Shown here: positions 13,235 to 33,840 of the stretch, piece after piece
Layout of the letters: each line of letters starts with the position of its first letter
Position numbering within the stretch: the stretch's first letter is position 1
The notes under the pieces: generated by a model
The model's database searches: none
The model's input: the letters and a program-made list of their open reading frames with translations, nothing else
Told to the model about the DNA's origin: nothing
Program-made: the position numbers and the translations under genes
Assembly (NCBI GenBank): GCA_021161865.1
Contig: JAGGZU010000041.1
Coordinates: forward strand, 1 to 35,634
DNA: 35,634 nt
From: Thermoplasmata archaeon
GTDB taxonomy: Archaea; Thermoplasmatota; E2; DHVEG-1; B18-G2
Direction: 5' to 3'

Positions 13235-13825
13235 TTAAAAGCTCTTTTGTTTAAACCTTCTATGAAGCGTGTTCGCCAGTATATGTATACCCGGGGTCAC
13301 AGTTAATATGACAAGGAGATGCCATAGTGTAAAGTTTTTTAGAAACCAGTTGTAGTTTGTTACTCCTGTTAGTTGAAGGAGACCACTGGTTATTAACGCC
13401 AGAATCAACGCTCCTGCTACAAAGTCAAGTTGGTCAAATAGCAGCCAATCCTCGCCTCTCTCCTTACCTACTCTTCGTTTGAAGAAGCTCTCTATCAAGT
13501 CACCGAGAAGCGCTCCTATGCATAGCGATAAAATGATGGGTATCATCAATGGGTAACCTTCAAAGTAGTCGAGGTTTATCATGTTTAGACCGTGTTCAGT
13601 TAGGTATTTTGCTGCTGTAACTTGAGAGAAACCAACTATTGAGCCAAGGAGGGAGCCGAAAAACAGGCCACGCCATGTTTTACCATCACCAAGTATTCTT
13701 TTTCCATCTCTCCACGTTTTACCGAAATCTATGGCTAACCCTCCACCTACAAGCACAGCGCAACCATTCGCAGCATAGGCTGGAAGTATAAGCCACAGTG
13801 CTTGGAGGATTATCTCGTACTGCAC
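13235..13825 (-). CDS. carS: CDP-archaeol synthase (CDP-2,3-bis-O-geranylgeranyl-sn-glycerol synthase)
   Basis: LWLILPAYAANGCAVLVGGGLAIDFGKTWRDGKRILGDGKTWRGLFFGSLLG; D(F/S)K motif and multiple TMs. Confidence 0.92.
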   Translation of the reverse strand: MQYEIILQALWLILPAYAANGCAVLVGGGLAIDFGKTWRDGKRILGDGKTWRGLFFGSLLGSIVGFSQVTAAKYLTEHGLNMINLDYFEGYPLMIPIILSLCIGALLGDLIESFFKRRVGKERGEDWLLFDQLDFVAGALILALITSGLLQLTGVTNYNWFLKNFTLWHLLVILTVTPGIHILANTLHRRFKQKSF

Positions 13826-21077: not shown

Positions 21078-21722
21078 TTATTTTAATGTTTTAACCCACT
21101 CGTACACGGGTTCCACCAGTTTTTTAATCCTCTCCTTTTCCTTGTTCATCGGTGAAGGCTCCCACTCATCAGCTGGTTCAAAATGCCAGTCTGTTATAGC
21201 ACCTATCCGTTGTTCTTTTGGTTTGAAAACTACCTTCAGAGGCATGTTGAACTCGACGTCCCATGGGTTCACACCATGCAACTCGTTTGCTATCGCTGTT
21301 TTTGAACCCTCTATCACACCGTAAACAAGTATTATCGGCAATCTTTTCAACGACGACCTCCCCGACCATCCTGCCACTGTCCAGGTGTGAACCTTTGCTT
21401 TCTTTGGCATCTCAATCCACTCTGTTCTCTGCAGGTTACAGTCAAGGTTCCAGCAATGTGTCCTCGGTGGAACCCATGTGTCACCGCATTTCGGGCAGCG
21501 GGTTCCCATTATCTTTCCTTCAAGTAATCCTATGAAAAAGGGTGAATTCCATCCATGCCGGATGGTGTAGAGTTGATCATAGTGTAGGAACTGGTTCATC
21601 GTTTTTTTGTCATCAGATATCTCGTAACCGACAAAAACCAGCCCTTTTTCTTTAACATCTAGTGGTCTGAAATCTTTTCTAATGGTGAAGTTTGGTGTTT
21701 CCGCAAACTTTTTCTTAACCAT
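21078..21722 (-). CDS. Thiolase-associated DUF35 (Zn-ribbon plus OB-fold) acyl-CoA-binding protein
   Basis: GTRCPKCGDTWVPPRTHCWNLDC zinc ribbon followed by OB-like KVHTWTVAGWSG; 1 nt from the upstream thiolase gene. Confidence 0.85.
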   Translation of the reverse strand: MVKKKFAETPNFTIRKDFRPLDVKEKGLVFVGYEISDDKKTMNQFLHYDQLYTIRHGWNSPFFIGLLEGKIMGTRCPKCGDTWVPPRTHCWNLDCNLQRTEWIEMPKKAKVHTWTVAGWSGRSSLKRLPIILVYGVIEGSKTAIANELHGVNPWDVEFNMPLKVVFKPKEQRIGAITDWHFEPADEWEPSPMNKEKERIKKLVEPVYEWVKTLK

Positions 21723-21723
21723 T

Positions 21724-22974
21724 TCAAACCCTCCTCAGTATGAAGTTTGATATGCTTGTCCCTGTTCCAGCATGACTGTTTACTATCCCTGTGTGGGGGT
21801 CTGGAACTTGAGTTTTTGAGCTTAAATGTTTTTTTGGAATTAAACCAGCCAGTTGGTAGTATGCTTCTATGGCACTCATGAGTCCTGTTGCACCAACCGG
21901 ATGCCCATAACCCATTAAACCGCCACCTGGGTTCATGGGTATACTACCTTCGAGATATGTTTCTTTGTCTCTTATGAACTGTGCTATGTTTTCACTGTCC
22001 GCTAAACCAAGGGCTTTGTAGATTTGTGCTTCTGAGGTGGAGAACGCGTCATGTATTTCCCCGAAATCTATCTGCTTTAGCGGGTTATCTATTCCAGCTT
22101 GTTTGTAGGCTACCTCTGCTGATTGTCTGCATGCAGCGAACTCTGTCATCTCTGGGTAACCTGGTCCGTATCTTTCTATCCAACCTGGAAAGTTGAGTCT
22201 ATCCCCTGCTCTTATGGTGCAGCTTGATAATCCCATTCCATCGATGGTTACATAATGATCTGGGTTCACTTTTTTAGCATACTCTTCGGTTGTTACAAGT
22301 AGGAATGCTACTCCTCTTGTCATAAGGCAGCAATCGTATTTTTTGATTGGATAAGATATCAGACGGGAGTTTAGAACATCATCCACGGTTATGTACCTAT
22401 GTTCGTTTCTATACCATTGTGCCTTTGGGTTATCCATGGCGTTGTTCCTGTTTTTCACGGCAATCAACGCCACATCTTCTTCTGTAACCTTGTTTTCTCT
22501 CATCCATTTGTTTGCCATAGCTGCATAGTAGATTGGGTAGATGCCGCCAACCATCAGTTCGTATCTTATGTCTGATGCAAGGGCTATGAACTCGCTGCCC
22601 TGGGATTGTGACACTGAGTCCATGGTTTCCCAGCCGATTACTCCAACAACGTCATGTTGTCCTGATTTAACAGCAAGTGCTGCGGCGTATAATGCAGAGC
22701 CACCAGTGTTTCCACCATTCTCTACCCTATAATGTGGTACACCAACGAGACCAAGGTGGTCATGTATTATCCACTCTGCTGAGAGTTGATGCCCAAAATG
22801 CACTGAGAAATGAGAGTAAATCATCATGTCTATGTCTCTGAGGTTGAAGTCTGGTATGTCACGCATAACCTCACGTACGCATTCCGCTGCGCCCCCTTCT
22901 ATGCTTTCAAAACCGGTTGGACCATAATCAAATGGTGTTGTTGCACCACCTATTATACAAACCTTCCTGGACAT
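21724..22974 (-). CDS. Thiolase-family protein (acetyl-CoA acetyltransferase / SCP-x-like)
   Basis: GEIHDAFSTSE, NPGGGLMGYGHPVGATGLMSAIEAY, HAGTGTSISNFIL. Confidence 0.9.
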   Translation of the reverse strand: MSRKVCIIGGATTPFDYGPTGFESIEGGAAECVREVMRDIPDFNLRDIDMMIYSHFSVHFGHQLSAEWIIHDHLGLVGVPHYRVENGGNTGGSALYAAALAVKSGQHDVVGVIGWETMDSVSQSQGSEFIALASDIRYELMVGGIYPIYYAAMANKWMRENKVTEEDVALIAVKNRNNAMDNPKAQWYRNEHRYITVDDVLNSRLISYPIKKYDCCLMTRGVAFLLVTTEEYAKKVNPDHYVTIDGMGLSSCTIRAGDRLNFPGWIERYGPGYPEMTEFAACRQSAEVAYKQAGIDNPLKQIDFGEIHDAFSTSEAQIYKALGLADSENIAQFIRDKETYLEGSIPMNPGGGLMGYGHPVGATGLMSAIEAYYQLAGLIPKKHLSSKTQVPDPHTGIVNSHAGTGTSISNFILRRV

Positions 22975-23061
22975 GTTTATCTTCCTCTCCCCGAAACCAA
23001 AGAAAACTACTCTTGGCTCCCTTTTTGAGGTAATGCAACATGTGTTAAAATGTTTTTCTTT

Positions 23062-24879
23062 TTATCTTCCAACCACTATACCCGCCGGATCAATTTGTTT
23101 GAGTATACTCAACTCTTTTTTGGTTGGTGGAGTTGTTGTCTGCACATTCTCTGGTATTGTTATGTTGAACCCGCTGTTGTTTTTTATATCCTCAATGGTT
23201 ACACCAGGATGAATCGATAGCAGTGTCATTTGTTTTGTTTTCTCATCAAACCCGTATACTCCAAGTTGGGTTATCACCCTGTAGGGTCCACTCGTAGTGG
23301 GTAAACCATTTTTTTCCCTAGAGTTTTTACCGTTTAGGTAACCTGGTGTGGTTAGGAAATCGATTTTTTTTACAAACCTGTTTTTGTCTTGTCTCATTAT
23401 TATAATGGTTTTGTTGCATAGACTTCCAACGTCGTTTGCACCACCACTCCCAGGGAGTCTCACCTTTGGTTTTTCGTAGTCTCCTATCACGGTCGTGTTT
23501 ATGTTCCCGTACATGTCTATCTGTGCTGCTCCAAGGAAGCCGTAGTCTATGTATCCTGCTTGTGCCATGGACATGGAGTCATGCATGCTTGATGCAGCAA
23601 CAGCCATGTGGAAGGTTCTTGAGTCCCCAACCGATATCGGGAGTACAGGTATTTCTGGTCCGATTCCTCCTGCTTCGAAGAAAAGCAGCAGGTTTGGTGC
23701 ATGTGTTTTTTGTGCGAGCATTGCCGCTATCATTGGTAAACCTGTTCCCACAAACACCGACTTGTTGTCTTCCAGGAGGTGTGATGCGGCGCAGGCAAGC
23801 AGTTCAGTGGATGAGTAGGTTTGTTGTTGGAACTGTTGTTTTTTCTTTTTTATCCAGGGTGCGTTCATGGGTTTTTCAAGTCGTTCAATTTTTTCAAGCT
23901 GTTGAAGCCTTGTTTTTCCACCGATTAATCTTAGATATTCTTCTAAATCTTCGGTTCCATAAACGTATTTTTCCAGGTAACTCTTTACGCCTTCATCTGT
24001 TTTCGAAAGTGTAAGCCATTCCCCAATGTGTTGTTCATCAAAGAAATACTGGTAGGGCATTTGGCAGGGATGGGAACCAAATGCTGCTTCAACAACAGCG
24101 TCAACAAGGTAGAAGGGTATAACGGTTTTCCAAGGCTCTTGCCTTATTTCTTTACTGTCAACGATTTTTTCGGTTGTGATGATAACTCTTCTTGCTGCAC
24201 GAGCAAGCTCAAAGTCTTCAACCATTATACCATCAATCTGAGCGTTCCCATGTTTGTCGCATCTTGGTACATGTATAACCGTTACGTCAGGATAGCACGC
24301 CGGTAGCAAACAAACAGTTTTACCACTAAAAGGGTCTTTTATTGTTTTTGCTGAACTATGTTTGAATGTGTCTGTTCCAAGCATCACCCGTGTTGGTATA
24401 AAAGGTACTCCCATCATTGCTGCTAGGAAACGCCATTGGTAACCGGCGTTACTGATTTCACCAACTACCTTGCATTTTCCTGTTTCAACTGCTCGGCGTG
24501 ATGCTGGTGAGAGTCCTCGAAGCTCATGACCAAAGGCGTAGGCTACCTCGACTTTGTTAACACAACCAGAGGCTACAAGGAGATCAAGGTCATGGACGGC
24601 TGTTTTTCCAGCCATTATTAGGTTTCTTCTAGGTTGCCTTATGATCTCGTAAACAACAGCCATTGAAACCCTCACATGACCGAAGCCACCCATTGCTAAA
24701 AGGTCGCCGTTTTTTATAAAACTGGAGACAGCTTCCTTAGCATTCATTCTTTTGTCAATTAAACCCCTGGGTTTGTTTTTTAGTATCCACCTGCGGTTTT
24801 CATCAGGGTCATACCATCCAATTAGTTTGCCCCTGCCTTCCTCCAGCACCATTTTGTCGTCTGCTTTGCTGTGTCCCAT
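23062..24879 (-). CDS. Family I CoA-transferase with GctA-like and GctB-like halves fused
   Basis: 605 aa; N-half GDLLAMGGFGHVRVSMAVVYEIIRQ...VTVIHVPRCDKHGNAQIDG; C-half VFVGTGLPMIAAMLAQ...LLLFFEAGGIGPE...LGAAQIDMYGNINTTVIGDY. Confidence 0.88.
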   Translation of the reverse strand: MGHSKADDKMVLEEGRGKLIGWYDPDENRRWILKNKPRGLIDKRMNAKEAVSSFIKNGDLLAMGGFGHVRVSMAVVYEIIRQPRRNLIMAGKTAVHDLDLLVASGCVNKVEVAYAFGHELRGLSPASRRAVETGKCKVVGEISNAGYQWRFLAAMMGVPFIPTRVMLGTDTFKHSSAKTIKDPFSGKTVCLLPACYPDVTVIHVPRCDKHGNAQIDGIMVEDFELARAARRVIITTEKIVDSKEIRQEPWKTVIPFYLVDAVVEAAFGSHPCQMPYQYFFDEQHIGEWLTLSKTDEGVKSYLEKYVYGTEDLEEYLRLIGGKTRLQQLEKIERLEKPMNAPWIKKKKQQFQQQTYSSTELLACAASHLLEDNKSVFVGTGLPMIAAMLAQKTHAPNLLLFFEAGGIGPEIPVLPISVGDSRTFHMAVAASSMHDSMSMAQAGYIDYGFLGAAQIDMYGNINTTVIGDYEKPKVRLPGSGGANDVGSLCNKTIIIMRQDKNRFVKKIDFLTTPGYLNGKNSREKNGLPTTSGPYRVITQLGVYGFDEKTKQMTLLSIHPGVTIEDIKNNSGFNITIPENVQTTTPPTKKELSILKQIDPAGIVVGR

Positions 24880-24985: not shown

Positions 24986-26125
24986 ATGAACTTTGAGTTA
25001 ACACCTGAGCAGAAGGCTATACAAAAAACGGTGCGTGAGTTTTGTGAAAAAGAGATAAAACCCATTGCTGCCAAGATCGATGACGAGGAGGAGTTTCCAT
25101 GGGATCTTTACAAAAAGATGGGTAAACTTGGTCTCATGGGGATGACCGTTCCCAAGGAGTACGGCGGTGCAGGTATCGACCGGTTGAGCTACATGCTCGC
25201 TCTTGAGGAGATCTCCAAAGCATCTGGTTCGGTTGGTATAACGGTTGAGGCACATAACTCACTTGGTATAGGTCACATCTACGAAAAAGGCACGGAGGAG
25301 CAACGTAGGAAGTATTTGCCGAGGCTTACAAGCGGTGAAGCCATCGCTGCGTGGGCGCTCACTGAGCCAAATGCCGGCTCTGATGCCGCTTCGATTCAAA
25401 CAACAGCTGTGCTTGAGGGGGATGAATGGGTTTTGAATGGTACAAAACATTTCATCACAAGCGGTGATATCGCTGAGGTTGTTACGGTTATGGCTAAAAC
25501 TGATAAGGAAAAGGGTGCAAAGGGCATTAGCGCTTTTATTGTTGAGAAGGGGACACCTGGTTTTGAGGTTGGTGTACTTGAGGACAAGCTTGGTTTACGT
25601 GGCAGTAGAACCGCTGAGCTTATCTTAGAGGACTGTAGGGTTCCTAAGGAGAATCTTCTTGGTGAAAAAAACATGGGTTTCATTGGTGCAATGAACATTC
25701 TTGACCGTGGTAGAACAGCGATTGGTGCTATGGCTGTCGGTATAGCTCAGGCTGCTCTTGAGGAAAGTATAGAGTATTCTAAACAACGGCAGCAGTTTGG
25801 TAGACCAATCTCTAAGTTTCAAGCAGTTCAGTGGATGATTGTTGACATGGCCACTGAGATTGAAGCTGCTCGTTTACTGGTTCACCGTGCTGCATTCCTT
25901 GAGGATCATGATATACCGTTTACTAAAGAGGCTGCTATGGCTAAACTTTTTGCCTCTGAGATGGCGATGCGAGCCACCAGGAAAGCTATTCAGGTTCATG
26001 GTGGCTATGGTTACACAAAGGAGTATCCTCTCGAAAGGTTTTTCAGGGATGTAAAGCTCTGTGAGATTGGTGAAGGCACTTCTGAGGTTCAGAGATTGGT
26101 TATTGCAAGGAGACTTGGTTTATAA
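24986..26125 (+). CDS. Acyl-CoA dehydrogenase (short/branched-chain type)
   Basis: WALTEPNAGSDAASIQTTA, NGTKHFITSGDIA, YSKQRQQFGRPISKFQAVQ, VHGGYGYTKEYPLERFFRDVKLCEIGEGTSEVQR. Confidence 0.95.
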   Translation: MNFELTPEQKAIQKTVREFCEKEIKPIAAKIDDEEEFPWDLYKKMGKLGLMGMTVPKEYGGAGIDRLSYMLALEEISKASGSVGITVEAHNSLGIGHIYEKGTEEQRRKYLPRLTSGEAIAAWALTEPNAGSDAASIQTTAVLEGDEWVLNGTKHFITSGDIAEVVTVMAKTDKEKGAKGISAFIVEKGTPGFEVGVLEDKLGLRGSRTAELILEDCRVPKENLLGEKNMGFIGAMNILDRGRTAIGAMAVGIAQAALEESIEYSKQRQQFGRPISKFQAVQWMIVDMATEIEAARLLVHRAAFLEDHDIPFTKEAAMAKLFASEMAMRATRKAIQVHGGYGYTKEYPLERFFRDVKLCEIGEGTSEVQRLVIARRLGL

Positions 26126-26147
26126 TAAATAGAAAAAGGTGGTTGGT

Positions 26148-27794
26148 ATGAAGAACATGTTGAGTGGTGCTTCTAAAAAGGAGGACAGGTATGAGGAGAT
26201 GTACAGGAACTTTAAATGGAATGTTCCAGAGTACTACAATTTTGGTTTTGATGTTGTTGACAGGTGGGCTGAGGACAGGACTAAACTAGCTTTGATTTCC
26301 ATTGATAGAACAGGGAAACATGATAGGTATCACACATTTTATGACCTCAGTGTTGCGTCGAACAGGTTTGCTAACGTGCTTAGAAATATTGGTGTGAAAA
26401 AAGGAGATCGTGTGCTTGTTATCCTTCAGAGCATACCTGAGTGGTATATTGCGTTGATTGGCATGTTTAAACTTGGTGTTGTACCTATGCCTGGAACCGT
26501 GTTGCTTACAGCAAAGGACATTGAGTACCGTATCAACCGTGCAGAGGCTTGTATGGTGCTCACAGACCTTGATCATGCGGATAGTGTGGAGGCGGTGAAG
26601 GCTAACTGCCCAACGTTGAAACATATGATGCTTGTTGACGGTAAAAGAGCTGGTTGGTACAACTTTTATGAGGAGATGAGCGAGGCTTCACCAGAGCTTT
26701 CCCAAGAGGGGGTTGGTAAAACTAGGTCTACGGATCCAATGCTTATCTATTTCACCTCCGGTACCACCGGTCACCCTAAAATGGTTCTTCACACTCATAG
26801 TTATCCTCTTGGTCATGAGGTGACCGCTAAGTTCGCGCAGGCTTTGACTGATAAGGATTTGCATTGGACTGTTTCTGAAACCGGTTGGGCGAAGGCTGCC
26901 TGGGGTAAGCTTTTTGGTCAGATGATTGTTGGAGCCGCTATTATTCAGTGGGAGACACCTGGTAGGTTTGACCCTGATGGTTTACTGAGGGCTATGGAGA
27001 AGTATGGTGTAACAACCTTTTGCGCTCCACCAACGGTTTACCGGATGCTTATCCAGCTTGATCTCTCCAAGTATAATCTTAAGCTTCGTCATTGTATGAG
27101 CGCTGGTGAGCCACTCAACCCGGAGGTTATAAGGGTTTGGAAGAAAGCCTTTGGTTTAGACATCTATGATTTTTATGGTCAAACCGAGACCGTTTGTGTA
27201 CTGTCCAACTACCCTTTTATGCCCATCAAGTATGGTTCAGTGGGGAAACCAACACCTGGTCATGATGTGAGGATAGTGGACGACGATGGAAACGAGTTGA
27301 AGCCAGGTGAAGTTGGCAACATAGCCCTCTATATTGGTAAGGAGCGTCCACCAGGTTTGTTCAAGGAGTATTGGAAGGATGAGGAGGCGATGAAGGAAGC
27401 ATTCAGAGGGGACTATTATTTCACAGGTGATCTTGGTTACAAGGATGAGGATGGTTATTTCTGGTTTGTTGGTCGTAGAGATGATGTGATAAAATCTTCT
27501 GGTTATCGTATAGGCCCTTTTGAGGTGGAGTCTGCTTTGATGGAGCATCCAGCTGTTGCTGAGTGTGCTGTCGTTGGCGTACCTGACCCACAGGGAATAA
27601 GGGGGACTGTAGTCAAGGCCTTCGTCGTTCTTGCAAAGGGTTTTAAACCATCTGAGACGCTTACAAAGGGGCTTCAGGATCATGTGAAGAAAACCACTGC
27701 ACCGTACAAGTACCCACGTATAGTGGAGTACGTTGATGAGTTACCGAAGACTATTTCAGGTAAGATACTTAGACGTGAACTTAGGAAAAAATGA
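26148..27794 (+). CDS. AMP-forming acyl-CoA synthetase (MACS/medium or branched-chain-like)
   Basis: ORF from GTG 26139; ATG 26148 likely. LIYFTSGTTGHPKMVLHTH, YDFYGQTETV, YFTGDLGYKDEDGYFWFVGRRDDVIKSSGYRIGPFEVES, KTISGKILRRELR. Confidence 0.95.
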   Translation: MKNMLSGASKKEDRYEEMYRNFKWNVPEYYNFGFDVVDRWAEDRTKLALISIDRTGKHDRYHTFYDLSVASNRFANVLRNIGVKKGDRVLVILQSIPEWYIALIGMFKLGVVPMPGTVLLTAKDIEYRINRAEACMVLTDLDHADSVEAVKANCPTLKHMMLVDGKRAGWYNFYEEMSEASPELSQEGVGKTRSTDPMLIYFTSGTTGHPKMVLHTHSYPLGHEVTAKFAQALTDKDLHWTVSETGWAKAAWGKLFGQMIVGAAIIQWETPGRFDPDGLLRAMEKYGVTTFCAPPTVYRMLIQLDLSKYNLKLRHCMSAGEPLNPEVIRVWKKAFGLDIYDFYGQTETVCVLSNYPFMPIKYGSVGKPTPGHDVRIVDDDGNELKPGEVGNIALYIGKERPPGLFKEYWKDEEAMKEAFRGDYYFTGDLGYKDEDGYFWFVGRRDDVIKSSGYRIGPFEVESALMEHPAVAECAVVGVPDPQGIRGTVVKAFVVLAKGFKPSETLTKGLQDHVKKTTAPYKYPRIVEYVDELPKTISGKILRRELRKK

Positions 27795-27802
27795 AAAAGG
27801 TT

Positions 27803-29407
27803 TTACATTCTGTACATTGTTGGTTTCCACTTTGGTATTGGTGCGTTGAGTGCAGCTGATATACCTAAACCCAGTACCATTCTTGTGTCAGCTGGGTCGA
27901 TAACACCATCATCCCATATCCTCGCTGTGCTGTAGTATGGGCTTCCCTCTCTCTCATATTTTTTGAGTATAGGTTCTATGATGGCTTTTTCCTCCTCCTT
28001 TGTCAAGGTTTTTCCTTTACGCCAAAGCTGGTCTTTTTTTACGGTTAAAAGCACGTTCGCTGCCTGTTCGCCACCCATAACTGAGATTCTAGCGTTTGGC
28101 CACATCCAAAGCTGCCTTGGCTGGTAGGCTCTACCACACATCCCATAGTTTCCTGCACCGAAGGAACCGCCTATTATAACAGTGAACTTTGGAACGTTTG
28201 CTGTGGTTACTGCACTAACCATTTTCGCTCCATCCTTTGCTATACCGCCTGCCTCGTATTTTTTTCCAACCATGAAACCTGTTATGTTCTGTAGAAACAC
28301 TAATGGTATTTTTCGTTGACAGCATATCTCTATGAAATGTGTTCCTTTGAGTGCAGATTCAGAGAACAGTACACCATTGTTTGCGAGTATACCAACAGGA
28401 TAACCCATGATTCTTGCAAAACCACACACAAGTGTAGTACCATAGAGTGCTTTGAATTCATGGAATTTTGACCCATCCACCAGTCTAGCTATGATTTCTC
28501 TGACCTCGAAGGGTTTCCTGGGATCCTTTGATATTACCCCATAGATTTCTTTTATATCATACAGTGGTTCCTCAGGTTTTTTGACATCAAGCTGTGTTTT
28601 CTCAGGTCTATTGAGGTTTTCAACAATGTTTCTCGCTATCTGTATAGCCTCCATGTCGTTGTGCGCGTAATGGTCTGCAACCCCACTTTCCCTGCAGTGT
28701 ACGTCTGCTCCACCAAGCTCCTCAGCTGTGACTTCTTCACCAGTTGCTGCTTTAACAAGAGGTGGACCGCCGAGGAAGATTGTACCAGTGCCTTTGACGA
28801 TTATTGTTTCATCGGACATAGCAGGTACGTATGCTCCTCCGGCGGTGCAGGAGCCCATGACAACAGCTATTTGAGGTATACCCATTGATGACATCTTGGC
28901 TTGGTTGTAGAATATTCTACCAAAATGTTCTCTGTCAGGGAAAACCTCATCCTGCATTGGTAGGAATGCTCCACCAGAATCAACAAGGTATATGCACGGT
29001 AGGTTGTTTTCCATTGCTATCTCTTGAGCGCGGAGATGTTTTTTTACAGTCATCGGGTAGTAGGTTCCACCTGTTACTGTGGCATCGTTTGCTATAACAA
29101 CAACCTCTCGTCCATGGATGATTCCTATCCCTGTTATAATGCCTGCAGCGGGAGCCTTGTTGTCGTACATGTCGTAGGCAGCAAGAGGGTTGAACTCCAT
29201 GAAGGGTGTGTCTGGGTCAAGGAGCGCTTCTATTCTTTCCCTGGCAAGCATTTTGCCACGTGATTTATGAAGTTTTATTCTCTCCTCTCCTCCTTTAGAT
29301 GCTTCAGCGATTTTGGCTTTTAAATCTTTGACAAGTTTCTCATAGTGGGCATAGTTTTCTTTAAACTCTTTGCTTGATGTGTCAATGTGACTCTCAATCA
29401 CATCCAT
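27803..29407 (-). CDS. Acyl-CoA carboxylase carboxyltransferase, best fit 3-methylcrotonyl-CoA carboxylase beta
   Basis: [122 protein letters not shown]. Confidence 0.9.
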
Positions 29408-29411
29408 TTTT

Positions 29412-29903
29412 TTATTCCTCCTTCTTTTCAATTTCCACCGTGATTTCTCCAAGTTCTATCTGATCTTTCTCTTTGAAGTTAACCTTTTTTACCATTCCAT
29501 CATATGGCGCTTTTATGAGGTACTCCATCTTCATGGCCTCTATGACCATGAGCACATCTCCTTTTTTAACTGCATCTCCCTTTTTCACGTTAACCCGCAC
29601 GACTTTCCCTGATATTGGTGAGGAGAGATTTCCCTCTTTTTTCTCCATTCTTTTTCTACCCGTTAAAGGTACAGGTTTAACTTTGAAGACATCACCGTCT
29701 ATGAAAACAAACTTACCGTTTTTTCCCTCAGCGACAACACATTTTATGTACCTGTCGCCAAGCTTTATTTTGAGTTGACCTGGTTTAACCTCCTCTGCTT
29801 CAACGGTGTAGGTGGTGTTGTCGTAGGTAACAAGGTATTTATCTTCTTTTCTTTCGACCTCAACATTGTAAACATGGTTTTCGTACTCATAGTTGATGAA
29901 CAT
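29412..29903 (-). CDS. Biotin carboxyl carrier protein with N-terminal BT-like beta domain
   Basis: Biotinylation site [17 protein letters not shown]; preceding ~80 aa of beta-rich sequence; ORF from 29912, start probably M at 29903. Confidence 0.88.
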
Positions 29904-29904
29904 G

Positions 29905-31401
29905 CTACACACCTATCCTCCATCTACCAGTGTGTTTCCATGGTGAATGCGGATCAGGTTCCTTGTATCTAACCACTTCCTCTCGTTTTGGATGCAGGGC
30001 ATTATAGATTGCAAGACCTATAATGGCATCAAGTGGCAGTCCTTTTTGTTGTTCACCCCAGTCTTTGAAGTAAGTGTCTATGAAGTGTGTTGTGATGTTT
30101 CCTCTTCTAAAAGCTTCATGTTTCAAAACCCTTTTCAGAAATGGAATGTTTGTTGTAACTCCCAGTATAACATACCTTGACAGAGCCCATATCATTTTGT
30201 TTATGCTTTCCTCCCTGTTTTCGCCACCGACTATGAGTTTGGCAAGCATTGGATCATAGTAGGGTGTTATCTCTAACCCTGTTTCGATTCCAGCATCATT
30301 CCTTATGTTTGGACCCAGTGGCATCTCCACTTTTTCTAGTACTCCAACGCTCGGCAGGAAACCATGAGCTGGATCCTCAGCATATATCCTGCATTCCAAG
30401 GCGTGCCCCCTTTGGTGAACATCCTTTTGAGTGAGGTCGAGTTCTTTTCCAGCAGCGATTTTTATCTGACGTTTAACGATGTCTACACCTGTAGTCATCT
30501 CTGTGATTGGATGCTCGACTTGTAACCTCGTATTCATCTCCATGAAATAGTAGTTTAGGTTGCCATCGACCATAAACTCTATGGTGCCAGCATTTGTGTA
30601 ACCAACCGCTTCTGCAGCTTTAACAGCAGCCTCACCCATCTCTTTTCTTAAATCCTTTGTCATAACAGGAGAAGGTGTTTCTTCTATGATTTTTTGATGC
30701 CTTCTTTGGATGGAGCATTCTCTTTCAAACAGATGTATGATGTTGCCGTGTTCGTCAGCAAGTATCTGAAACTCTATGTGCCGTGGTTTGTCAAGGTATC
30801 TTTCAAGGAAAACCATGTCGTTTCCAAAGGAGGATTTTGCTTCACGTTTCGCGCTTTCTATGGATTCTTCAAGGTTTTCTTCTGAGTGAACGATTTTCAT
30901 TCCTTTCCCGCCACCGCCGGCAACAGCTTTAACAAGCAGAGGGAAACCTATCTTTTTTCCCTCTTTAACCAGTATTTTTGTGTCCTGTTTAAGCCCATGG
31001 TAACCCGGGATAATAGGTACACCTGCTTTTTCCATTGTTTTTTTGGCTTTTATTTTGTCACCCATGAGCGCGATAACCCTTGCATCTGGACCTATGAATT
31101 TCAATCCACTGTCCCTGCAAGCCTGCGCGAAATCAGGGTTTTCAGCCAGGAAACCATAACCCGGGTGTATGGCTTCAGCTCCCTTTTTTTCAGCTGCTTC
31201 AATGATCTTTCCTATGTTTAGGTAGCTCTCAGATGGTGTGGGGTCGCCAAGGTTCACTGATTCATCAGCTAGGTTTACATGTGGTGCTTTTTCATCAACC
31301 TTGGAGTAGACTGCAACGGTTTCTATCCCCATCTCCTTGCATGCATGGATCACTCTGATTGCTATTTCTCCACGGTTTGCTATCAGGATCTTTTTGAACA
31401 C
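29905..31401 (-). CDS. Biotin carboxylase subunit of an acyl-CoA carboxylase
   Basis: GTG start at 31401 preceded by ggaggg; VFKKILIANRGEIAIRVIHACKEMGIETVAVYS; AVAGGGGKGMKIV; ERYLDKPRHIEFQILAD; FMEMNTRLQVEHPITEMTTG. Confidence 0.95.
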   Translation of the reverse strand: MFKKILIANRGEIAIRVIHACKEMGIETVAVYSKVDEKAPHVNLADESVNLGDPTPSESYLNIGKIIEAAEKKGAEAIHPGYGFLAENPDFAQACRDSGLKFIGPDARVIALMGDKIKAKKTMEKAGVPIIPGYHGLKQDTKILVKEGKKIGFPLLVKAVAGGGGKGMKIVHSEENLEESIESAKREAKSSFGNDMVFLERYLDKPRHIEFQILADEHGNIIHLFERECSIQRRHQKIIEETPSPVMTKDLRKEMGEAAVKAAEAVGYTNAGTIEFMVDGNLNYYFMEMNTRLQVEHPITEMTTGVDIVKRQIKIAAGKELDLTQKDVHQRGHALECRIYAEDPAHGFLPSVGVLEKVEMPLGPNIRNDAGIETGLEITPYYDPMLAKLIVGGENREESINKMIWALSRYVILGVTTNIPFLKRVLKHEAFRRGNITTHFIDTYFKDWGEQQKGLPLDAIIGLAIYNALHPKREEVVRYKEPDPHSPWKHTGRWRIGV

Positions 31402-31402
31402 C

Positions 31403-32185
31403 CTATTCCCTCCAACTTGGTTTCTTTTTTTCAAGAAAAGCACGTATCCCTTCTTGTCCCTCCTTTGACACTCTAAGTTCGGCTATCTTCTTCACCGTAT
31501 ACTCCTTGTATTCTCCTGTTTTCAGCTCCTGATACATTCTTACAAGGTTTTTCACCTCTTTCACAGCATTTGGACCTGATGTTAGCGTTAGGTTAACATA
31601 TTTTTTTATGGTTTCATCAAGCAAATCCTGTGGAACAACATGGTCGATTAAACCCATATGTTCCGCGTACTGGGAGTCGAAACGTTCACCTGTTATAAAG
31701 AGTCGTCTGGTGTTTGCTATGCCTATGCGTCTTATCACGTATGGGGAGATTACAGCAGGTATTATACCCAGTTTCACCTCGCTGAACGCGAACTTTAGGT
31801 TGGGGGTGGCTACGTTTATGTCACATACGGCAAGTAAGCCTAGTCCTCCACCGAAGGCATGCCCGTTTATTCTTCCAATAACAGGTTTTGAACAGTTGTC
31901 AATGGTTTCGTATAAGTCAAGCAGAAGCCTGCTGTCACTGATGTTTTCCTCCATGGTGTAGTCAGCCATACTCTTCATCCAGTTTAGGTCCGCACCAGCG
32001 CAGAAGGATTTACCGTTTCCTGTTAAAACAACGACTCTAATCTGTTCATCTGAGTTTATTTTTTTAAAACAGGAGGTAAGTTCTTTCATCATCTTTTCGT
32101 TCATTGCGTTGTGAACCTCTGGTCTATCCAATGCTATTGTAATAGTTTTTTCTTCTTTTGTAACAGCAATGGTTTCGTAACTCAT
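31403..32185 (-). CDS. Enoyl-CoA hydratase family, best fit methylglutaconyl-CoA hydratase
   Basis: SFCAGADLNWMKSMADYT (the ADLNWMK motif is characteristic of methylglutaconyl-CoA hydratases), NGHAFGGGLGLLAVCD, FAFSEVKLGIIPAVISPYV. Confidence 0.88.
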   Translation of the reverse strand: MSYETIAVTKEEKTITIALDRPEVHNAMNEKMMKELTSCFKKINSDEQIRVVVLTGNGKSFCAGADLNWMKSMADYTMEENISDSRLLLDLYETIDNCSKPVIGRINGHAFGGGLGLLAVCDINVATPNLKFAFSEVKLGIIPAVISPYVIRRIGIANTRRLFITGERFDSQYAEHMGLIDHVVPQDLLDETIKKYVNLTLTSGPNAVKEVKNLVRMYQELKTGEYKEYTVKKIAELRVSKEGQEGIRAFLEKKKPSWRE

Positions 32186-32542: not shown

Positions 32543-32622
32543 ACCACCAAGATTGAAATTCTAGGATTTTTTACGAAATAAATATAAGGCAAAAGTAGAT
32601 ACCTCTGAGCGGAGGGTAATTG

Positions 32623-33840
32623 ATGAATCTAGAGCGGTTATTCTCAGGAAGGACAAAAACGATGCGTCCTTCAGAAATTAGAGAGCTCCTAAAGCTTACG
32701 CAGAATCCTGAAATTATATCATTTGCTGGTGGTTTACCAAACCCCTCGTCGTTTCCAATAGATGAGATGCAGAATGTCTGCATAGATGTGCTGAAGAAAC
32801 ATGGTAAACTGGCTCTTCAATATGGACCTACAGAGGGTATGCGGCCTTTGAGAAACTCTTTGGCAAACAGGGCGAAGAAGGAAGGGATAGACGCATCATC
32901 GGATAATGTTTTGATAACCTCTGGCTCTCAGCAGGGTTTGGATGTGCTTGGAAGGGTTTTTCTTGATCCCGGTGACACGATAATAGTTGGCTTGCCAACA
33001 TATCTTGGTGCGTTGAATGCGTTCCGTGCCTATGAAGTAAACTTTGCCGGTATTCCTCTTGACAAAGATGGCATGCAGGTTGATTTACTTGAAGAAAAGG
33101 TGAAGGAGTTAAACAAAAAGGGTGTGACGCCAAAGTTTATTTATTTGGTTCCAACATTTCAAAACCCTGCAGGCGTGGTGATGCCTGAGAGTAGAAGGAG
33201 AAGGGTTGTTGATATTGCAAATGAGTATGACCTTATAGTTATTGAGGATGATCCCTATAGTAAGCTTAGGTTTGAGGGCGACCATATTAAACCAATAAAA
33301 TCCTTTGATGACGAGGGTAGGGTCATTTATCTCTCAACGTTCTCCAAAATTCTTTCCCCTGGTTTCAGATTGGCGTGGATGATTGCATCAGAGCCTCTCA
33401 TAAGAAAGCTAACCATTGGTAAACAAGCTCTTGATCTCTGCACAAACACCTTCGTTCAGTTTATTGCAAACGAGTTCATAGAGAAAGGTTCTCTTGATTT
33501 ACATATAATGAAGATTATAGAGATGTATCGACCAAAGAGGGATATTATGATGGAGTCGATAAAAAAATACTTTCCGTCTGATACGGTGTGTCATAAACCA
33601 AAGGGTGGTATGTTTGCATGGGCCACTATCCCTGGACCAATTGATACCGAGGAGATGTTTCTCGATGCCATTAAAGAAAAGGTTGCCTACATCCATGGTA
33701 AAGCGTTTTATGTTGATGGTGGTGGGGCAAACTCCATGCGTCTAAACTTTTCCTACTCCTCAAACCAGACGATAGAGGAAGGTATGAAGCGGCTTGGGAA
33801 GGTGATAGAGAGAAAGCTGAAAGAAGCGGCTGCACAATGA
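32623..33840 (+). CDS. PLP-dependent class I/II aminotransferase (2-aminoadipate/LysN-like, MocR-type domain)
   Basis: ISFAGGLPNPSSFPIDEM, LITSGSQQGLDVLGRVFLDPGDTIIVGLPTYLGAL, VPTFQNPAGVVM, STFSKILSPGFRLAWM. Confidence 0.92.
   Translation: MNLERLFSGRTKTMRPSEIRELLKLTQNPEIISFAGGLPNPSSFPIDEMQNVCIDVLKKHGKLALQYGPTEGMRPLRNSLANRAKKEGIDASSDNVLITSGSQQGLDVLGRVFLDPGDTIIVGLPTYLGALNAFRAYEVNFAGIPLDKDGMQVDLLEEKVKELNKKGVTPKFIYLVPTFQNPAGVVMPESRRRRVVDIANEYDLIVIEDDPYSKLRFEGDHIKPIKSFDDEGRVIYLSTFSKILSPGFRLAWMIASEPLIRKLTIGKQALDLCTNTFVQFIANEFIEKGSLDLHIMKIIEMYRPKRDIMMESIKKYFPSDTVCHKPKGGMFAWATIPGPIDTEEMFLDAIKEKVAYIHGKAFYVDGGGANSMRLNFSYSSNQTIEEGMKRLGKVIERKLKEAAAQ

Follow-up and report, generated by a model that had tools for sequence, protein, structure and literature searches.

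A Thermoplasmata gene cluster predicted to make HMG-CoA from a product of leucine breakdown, with a candidate non-homologous HMG-CoA-cleaving enzyme

Does leucine carbon that reaches HMG-CoA in an uncultured Thermoplasmata archaeon pass straight into membrane lipids, or is part of it cleaved? The question arises from a gene cluster in a window of 35,634 nucleotides (the whole stretch of DNA analysed), in which a sequence-only reading had proposed a route from isovaleryl-CoA to HMG-CoA. The source genome is 88% complete. Misbinning of the contig was ruled out by tetranucleotide composition, the window lying at a distance of 0.077 from its own genome's contigs (own contigs, 0.095–0.188; order relatives, 0.23–0.63), and the contig is a genuine part of its genome. 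All six genes named by the earlier reading were recovered as intact ORFs at the coordinates it gave and matched their families. However, it had started the cluster at 24986, whereas the true start is at 21078, and the CoA-transferase and thiolase-like/DUF35 genes at 21078–24879 had been overlooked. Comparison with orthologues indicates that several genes probably start downstream of the longest ORF. The features are as follows:

21078–21722, minus strand: DUF35/ChsH2-type partner of the thiolase-like protein, with Zn-ribbon and OB domains (Pfam zf-ChsH2, 27.3 bits; OB_ChsH2_C, weak)
21724–22974, minus strand: thiolase-fold candidate retro-aldolase, carrying Gly88 where thiolases have the nucleophile Cys (alignment to 7yvy/6esq)
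23062–24879, minus strand: fused two-domain CoA-transferase of the glutaconate CoA-transferase (GctAB) type (1poi_B, 167 bits; 1poi_A, 132 bits)
24986–26125, plus strand: acyl-CoA dehydrogenase of the SCAD/Bcd type (5ol2, 457 bits, versus 320 for human isovaleryl-CoA dehydrogenase, IVD)
26139–27794, plus strand: AMP-forming acyl-CoA synthetase, MACS/MbcS-like (PDB 3etc, 543 bits; MbcS, 512 bits, under the cut-off of 850)
27803–29452, minus strand: MCC-type carboxyltransferase (beta), likely start ~29407 (794 and 790 bits to human and Pseudomonas MCC beta)
29412–29912, minus strand: biotin carboxyl carrier protein, BCCP (EAMKM motif; Biotin_lipoyl, 59.9 bits)
29905–31443, minus strand: biotin carboxylase, likely start ~31401 (PRK08591, 658 bits, above the cut-off of 597)
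31403–32185, minus strand: predicted LiuC-type 3-methylglutaconyl-CoA hydratase (ADLNWMK motif; MCC-linked hydratase clade)
32620–33840, plus strand: class I/II aminotransferase of uncertain pathway membership (Aminotran_1_2, 120 bits)

Whole or in part, the arrangement ECH-BC-BCCP-MCCb-(GGR-like)-MACS-ACAD-CoA-transferase-thiolase-like-DUF35 is found across the order at 54–91% protein identity and is therefore not due to chance. The cluster is real, and its predicted role is to make HMG-CoA from a leucine degradation product.

The carboxyltransferase, which is 84–91% identical in most of the order, scored 823, 794, 790 and 770 bits against structures of the MCC clade, 467 against geranyl-CoA carboxylase (GCC) and 278 against the highest-scoring PCC from outside that clade. 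Judged by these scores, it is of the MCC type rather than PCC, ACC or GCC, with 3-methylcrotonyl-CoA as its predicted substrate. One MCC-clade structure, 9tps, was named PCC by its depositors. The MCC alpha chain is here divided between two genes, and both the biotin carboxylase and the biotinylation motif expected of MCC are present. In the hydratase tree, the window protein fell within the MCC-linked hydratase clade (98/98), separate from generic crotonases (100/99), and the node uniting the archaeal and bacterial MCC-linked groups was recovered at 88/81. This placement and the ADLNWMK motif point to a methylglutaconyl-CoA hydratase of the LiuC/AUH type. These assignments bear out the earlier reading for the carboxyltransferase, BCCP, biotin carboxylase and hydratase, but not for the isovaleryl-CoA dehydrogenase that it had proposed. 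Aligned with human IVD, the window dehydrogenase shows LDRGR...IGEGTSE where IVD has LDLER...IGAGTSE, so that neither the LDLER-helix catalytic Glu nor the non-Glu residue of IGxGTSE is present. The enzyme is of the SCAD/Bcd type, and isovaleryl-CoA is its presumed substrate.

The sequence-only reading saw no HMG-CoA lyase in the window; this holds, and the absence extends further, as a profile search detected no PF00682 protein in the source genome and no protein resembling HMG-CoA lyase was found in 58 relatives or in 20 further genomes of MCC loci. As a positive control, real lyases from bacterial MCC loci scored 143–156 bits and were located inside those loci. The PF00682 proteins of the relatives and further genomes were mostly of the ~400-aa synthase type or the ~600-aa pyruvate-carboxylase-B type. 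The weak ~600-aa matches in relatives were rejected as lyases, since PYC_OADA and biotin domains were present in the single example scanned and the ones read adjoin a biotin carboxylase or begin like PycB. A 325-aa match in one genome (G033, 77 bits) was also rejected; it is without the lyase motif and set among unrelated biosynthetic genes. HMG-CoA reductase (HMGR) is present in the source genome and in 52 of 59 genomes overall. The absence of a recognisable lyase alongside a reductase is the pattern that the earlier reading had named as supporting lipid routing, whereas its proposed search for HMG-CoA synthase gave a divided result: none was found in the source genome, yet all four other family genomes and most of the order have one. 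Genome incompleteness may explain this gap. Whether HMG-CoA is cleaved or passed to lipids, using HMG-CoA lyase as a marker gene would wrongly score leucine degradation as absent or incomplete in these archaea.

The thiolase-fold/DUF35 pair offers a candidate non-homologous HMG-CoA-cleaving enzyme. Its larger member, modelled by AF2 with a thiolase fold (pLDDT 75, pTM 0.85), lacks the nucleophilic Cys of the thiolase CASG motif; Gly occupies this position invariantly in all family members read. Its partner has four invariant Cys residues (C76, C79, C90, C95). Gly at the nucleophile position together with a DUF35 partner is characteristic of the Sal/Ltp2 aldolases and is likewise found in CtSal, a retro-aldolase (PMC12329534). 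However, the Sal/Ltp2 catalytic Tyr (YDCY/YDHF) is missing, with HDAF at residues 308–311 instead. Membership of that group was rejected on this ground, and because of this replacement the Sal/Ltp2 mechanism is not simply transferable to the pair. The adjacent CoA-transferase, aligned to 1poi_B, conserves the catalytic Glu of GctB, as expected of a glutaconate CoA-transferase, which rules out an AibAB-type decarboxylase.

Our preferred reading, held tentatively, is that HMG-CoA is a branch point. Isovalerate or isovaleryl-CoA from leucine would be converted to HMG-CoA by the acyl-CoA synthetase, the acyl-CoA dehydrogenase, MCC (biotin carboxylase, BCCP and beta subunit) and the LiuC-type hydratase. 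Part of this HMG-CoA would be reduced to mevalonate by HMG-CoA reductase, and the remainder would be split into acetoacetate and acetyl-CoA through retro-aldolase action of the Cys-to-Gly thiolase-fold protein together with its DUF35 partner; because HMG-CoA is a tertiary 3-hydroxyacyl-CoA, its retro-aldol cleavage would give acetoacetate. Acetoacetate requires CoA activation, which the neighbouring CoA-transferase could supply. Within the order, the pair was found in 27 of 40 MCC-positive and 3 of 12 MCC-lacking genomes, and in nine of the ten MCC-positive genomes that are at least 90% complete. A CoA-transferase or an ACS-like ligase adjoins it; the identification of the ~650-aa ligases as acetoacetate-CoA ligases was unsupported, the ACS subfamily being a better fit. 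Several observations count against the branch-point reading, namely HDAF in place of Tyr, the 13 MCC-positive genomes of the order without the pair, the non-IVD type of the window dehydrogenase, a module without MCC in one genome (G096: CoA-transferase, pair and dehydrogenase) and the scarcity of MCC alongside the Cys-less family outside the order. There, as counted from listings, the family occurs in ~62 genomes, only 3 of them MCC-positive, and ~115 genomes are MCC-positive, only 3 of them with the family.

A broader proposal, which we regard as doubtful, is that the pair represents an unrecognised 3-hydroxy-3-methylacyl-CoA aldolase family in Thermoplasmatota leucine catabolism. Alongside MCC it would act as a non-homologous HMG-CoA lyase, whereas lineages that have a true IVD but no MCC would use it to convert 3-hydroxyisovaleryl-CoA (hydrated methylcrotonyl-CoA) to acetone and acetyl-CoA. 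In nine MCC-lacking genomes (eight of f36, one of f50), the pair lies directly after an IVD-type dehydrogenase, a placement that also speaks for the branch-point reading. If the pair does cleave HMG-CoA, a thiolase-fold aldolase fills the place of the "missing lyase", and its family, annotated only as thiolase-like, is found in many Thermoplasmatota genomes.

Among the alternatives, the possibility that leucine-derived HMG-CoA flows solely to mevalonate and archaeal lipids, the pair having another role, survives best, though we consider it rather unlikely. It accords with the lyase and reductase findings, with the lack of a detected HMG-CoA synthase in the source genome, with six MCC-positive genomes of Poseidoniia/Marine Group III-type loci (G072–G077) that contain neither PF00682 nor the Cys-less pair, and with precedent in Halobacterium and Trypanosoma brucei. 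However, the synthases of the relatives weaken the argument from absence, and the pair and CoA-transferase, conserved beside the module, are unneeded for lipid synthesis. Some lipid routing of leucine carbon is plausible in itself, but the idea is not new, given the Halobacterium precedent; if the lipid route is true, scavenged leucine supplies some of the membrane material of these archaea.

It appears improbable that the dehydrogenase, CoA-transferase, thiolase-like and DUF35 genes form a separate acyl-CoA pathway merely neighbouring MCC, for example for retro-aldol cleavage of another 3-hydroxyacyl-CoA. The SCAD type of the dehydrogenase, the mostly MCC-free occurrence of the family outside the order and the whole or partial module without MCC in G096 and a second genome (G117) would fit such a pathway, but these genes share one cluster with MCC in several genera of the order, an unrelated genome (G068) independently joins the pair, together with an acetyl-CoA acetyltransferase, to an MCC cluster, and the occurrence of true IVD genes beside the pair in f36 and f50 connects it to isovaleryl-CoA. 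Operation of the module in reverse, from HMG-CoA to isovaleryl-CoA and leucine with an outcome like that of the myxobacterial AIB pathway, is very improbable: despite a dehydrogenase resembling the reductive Bcd/AcrC enzymes and the absence of a LeuA-like PF00682 protein from the source genome, G010 and many MCC-positive relatives, ATP drives MCC towards carboxylation, the AIB pathway employs a GctAB-derived decarboxylase whereas the CoA-transferase here keeps the catalytic Glu of GctB, and LeuA absence also fits a peptide scavenger.

Comparison with known systems places the branch-point reading in context. The best NCBIfam match of the thiolase-fold protein is PRK06365 (thiolase domain-containing protein, function unknown), at 340 bits and under the cut-off of 695. 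The pair shares a thiolase fold (6esq, TMq 0.83) and a DUF35 partner with the archaeal acetoacetyl-CoA thiolase/DUF35/HMG-CoA synthase complex, but it has no nucleophile Cys and does not adjoin HMG-CoA synthase; in relatives, a separate, usually Cys-bearing thiolase lies beside the synthase. With the steroid side-chain aldolases Sal-ShyDUF35 and Ltp2-ChsH2DUF35 it has in common the fold, the DUF35 partner and the Gly substitution, whereas HDAF for YDCY/YDHF and a similarity of only 52–56 bits set it apart, and another substrate is expected. A leucine-to-mevalonate route has been reported for Halobacterium salinarum (Yamauchi 2010, as cited in PMC6155224), and in T. brucei, which still encodes a putative lyase, leucine feeds sterols and not fatty acids (PMC5993337). 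Leucine-derived HMG-CoA could likewise enter mevalonate synthesis uncleaved here; labelling established the route in H. salinarum and trypanosomatids, whereas the archaeal cluster is known from gene content. Finally, MCC beta, biotin carboxylase, BCCP and the LiuC-type hydratase are common to the bacterial and mitochondrial leucine (Liu) pathway, with clades shared with bacterial Liu loci. Those loci carry an HMG-CoA lyase and a fused MCC alpha chain, whereas the archaeal cluster, without a lyase, combines a non-IVD dehydrogenase and separate biotin carboxylase and BCCP genes with an additional CoA-transferase and the thiolase-like/DUF35 pair.

The sequence-only reading had proposed a leucine-to-HMG-CoA module, possibly feeding archaeal lipids, and the six genes that it named at 24986-32185 are intact and correctly identified at the family level. 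The carboxyltransferase is of the methylcrotonyl-CoA carboxylase (MCC) type, scoring 823, 794, 790 and 770 bits against MCC-clade structures, compared with 467 bits against geranyl-CoA carboxylase and 278 bits against the best propionyl-CoA carboxylase (PCC) outside that clade. Its top structure, PDB 9tps, bears the depositors' name PCC yet aligns with the MCC clade. The structure nearest to this MCC-clade protein (9tps/9tqc/9tqg) was thus deposited as PCC beta, perhaps under a wrong name; alternatively, the clade may accept a wider range of substrates. The hydratase is likewise of the MCC-linked 3-methylglutaconyl-CoA hydratase (LiuC) type: a maximum-likelihood tree places it among MCC-linked archaeal hydratases (98/98), beside hydratases from MCC loci of bacteria that in most cases also encode HMG-CoA lyase, with generic crotonases clearly separate (100/99). 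Assignment of the dehydrogenase to isovaleryl-CoA dehydrogenase (IVD) is not supported. Butyryl/short-chain types are nearest (457 bits versus 320 for human IVD), and LDRGR and IGEGTSE replace LDLER and IGAGTSE, so its residues do not place it with IVD; its specificity may be broad or altered. Along the putative route from isovalerate/isovaleryl-CoA through 3-methylcrotonyl-CoA and 3-methylglutaconyl-CoA to HMG-CoA, the MCC and hydratase steps are well supported, while we infer the first, isovaleryl-CoA to 3-methylcrotonyl-CoA.

Because MCC is missing from the other family members of the source genome (G000; 1.44 Mb, 88% complete) yet occurs at 84–91% identity in most of a sister family of the order, contamination was a concern. 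The tetranucleotide distance of the window, contig C111 of that assembly, to fourteen other G000 contigs is 0.077 (0.095–0.188 among those contigs; 0.23–0.63 for order relatives), and a helicase in the window is nearest to a member of G000's own family; C111 is therefore a genuine part of G000. Its MCC cluster came either by inheritance, followed by loss from the remaining members of the family, or by transfer from elsewhere in the order.

PF00682, which recovers the HMG-CoA lyases of bacterial MCC loci at 143–156 bits as a positive control, had no match in the 88% complete G000. No lyase-like protein was seen among the PF00682 matches of 58 relatives and 20 genomes of other, mostly archaeal, MCC loci. 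These were proteins of ~400 aa, the ~600 aa pyruvate-carboxylase-B type and a few un-lyase-like odd sizes; the ~400-aa N-termini read resemble LeuA/citramalate/homocitrate synthases, and a scan of one such protein showed a homocitrate synthase C-domain. The lyase motif is present in twelve bacterial MCC loci of the same set. HMG-CoA reductase occurs in G000 and in 52 of the 59 genomes. Thus, the pattern said to favor lipid routing, lyase absent and reductase present, is found in G000 at 88% completeness. HMG-CoA synthase, present in 51/59 genomes including all four family relatives, was not found in 88% complete G000, which may reflect MAG incompleteness. Separately, no LeuA/citramalate-synthase-like PF00682 protein was found in G000 or many MCC-positive relatives (G010, G005 and others), which suggests leucine auxotrophy or an alternative leucine route.

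Adjoining the module, at 21078-24879, lie three genes that the earlier reading overlooked:
23062-24879, minus strand, CoA-transferase of the fused GctAB type, catalytic Glu kept
21724-22974, minus strand, Cys-less thiolase-fold protein
21078-21722, minus strand, DUF35 partner

The thiolase-fold protein has VENGGNTGGS at the site of the nucleophile motif of thiolases (CASG), Gly88 replacing the Cys. This Gly is invariant across all members read, mostly alongside HDA[FY] and SHAG motifs, and a quick tree places the Cys-less sequences to one side of a single branch (support 99). AlphaFold predicts a thiolase fold for the window protein, nearest to that of archaeal thiolases. CtSal, a retro-aldolase with a DUF35 partner and no thiolysis, also has Gly at the equivalent position (PMC12329534), as does the window protein with its own DUF35 partner. 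Unlike Sal and Ltp2, the window protein lacks their catalytic Tyr and is therefore excluded from those families, though it may work in a similar manner. A second Cys-less thiolase-like/DUF35 paralog is grouped with AMP-forming ligases and a hydratase of MaoC-like type (L333:2306-7549, L335:2365-7596, L336:10470-15700, L337:2004-7261, L338:5684-9427), which recalls the ChsH1-ChsH2-Ltp2 layout of steroid side-chain cleavage. Some thiolases have Asp or Ser for the Cys (L004:2547-3722, L211, L212, L213-L216); that of L004 adjoins HMG-CoA synthase, and the genomes behind L213-L216 are those with Poseidoniia/Marine Group III-type MCC loci.

Several genera of the order conserve the CoA-transferase and the thiolase-like/DUF35 pair in one cluster with MCC, acyl-CoA synthetase and dehydrogenase. 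Of the order's genomes, 27/40 MCC-positive and 3/12 MCC-negative ones have the pair, as do 9/10 MCC-positive ones at ≥90% completeness. An independent MCC cluster (G068, locus L230) combines the pair with BCCP-BC-LiuC-MCCb, an acetyl-CoA acetyltransferase, EtfBA and a dehydrogenase. In eight genomes of family f36 and one of f50, all without MCC, the pair directly follows an IVD-type dehydrogenase; IVD structures were the best match for the two tested (403 and 327 bits), with close homologs in seven more f36 genomes. The pair is therefore tied to isovaleryl-CoA in two settings. Evidence against a dedicated HMG-CoA role is that, outside the order, the Cys-less family mostly lacks MCC (~62 genomes) and MCC mostly lacks the family (~115 genomes; both counted from listings), and that in one genome CoA-transferase, pair and dehydrogenase occur although MCC is missing. 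MCCb-ECH-BC-BCCP operons are widespread in families f24/f34 (L282-L292; MCCb identity 64–68%); the loci read carry neither the lyase motif nor the Cys-less pair.

Retro-aldol cleavage of HMG-CoA, a tertiary 3-hydroxyacyl-CoA, gives acetyl-CoA and free acetoacetate. The CoA-transferase, in some genera an ACS-like ligase, adjoins the pair and could supply the activity required to activate that free acid. For this reason, we favor HMG-CoA as a branch point, one part passing through the reductase to mevalonate and the other cleaved by the pair. The main rival is that leucine-derived HMG-CoA exits to mevalonate and lipids alone, the sole visible exit in six MCC-positive genomes that lack both PF00682 and the Cys-less pair.

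A geranylgeranyl-reductase (GGR)-family flavoprotein lies between MCCb and acyl-CoA synthetase in relatives (L139:8896-10134, L140:11750-12976, L239:6980-8221) and is absent from the window; several f24/f34 genomes (L282, L283, L286, L288, L289) also have remoter GGR-like genes, at a distance of ~5 kb from MCC. One membrane-lipid gene was recognized by eye in the window:
13235-13825, minus strand, CarS-like CDP-archaeol synthase

It lies ~8 kb from the cluster, a nearness that is probably coincidental.

A literature search, with most subscription journals outside its scope, found no paper covering either the Cys-less family or leucine pathways of Thermoplasmatota that do without the lyase. The aldolase reading of the pair, if proven, would define a new enzyme family. 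A leucine-to-mevalonate route is known in trypanosomatids (PMC5993337) and, by the account of Yamauchi 2010 given in PMC6155224, in halophilic archaea. The module is a variation on a known pathway.
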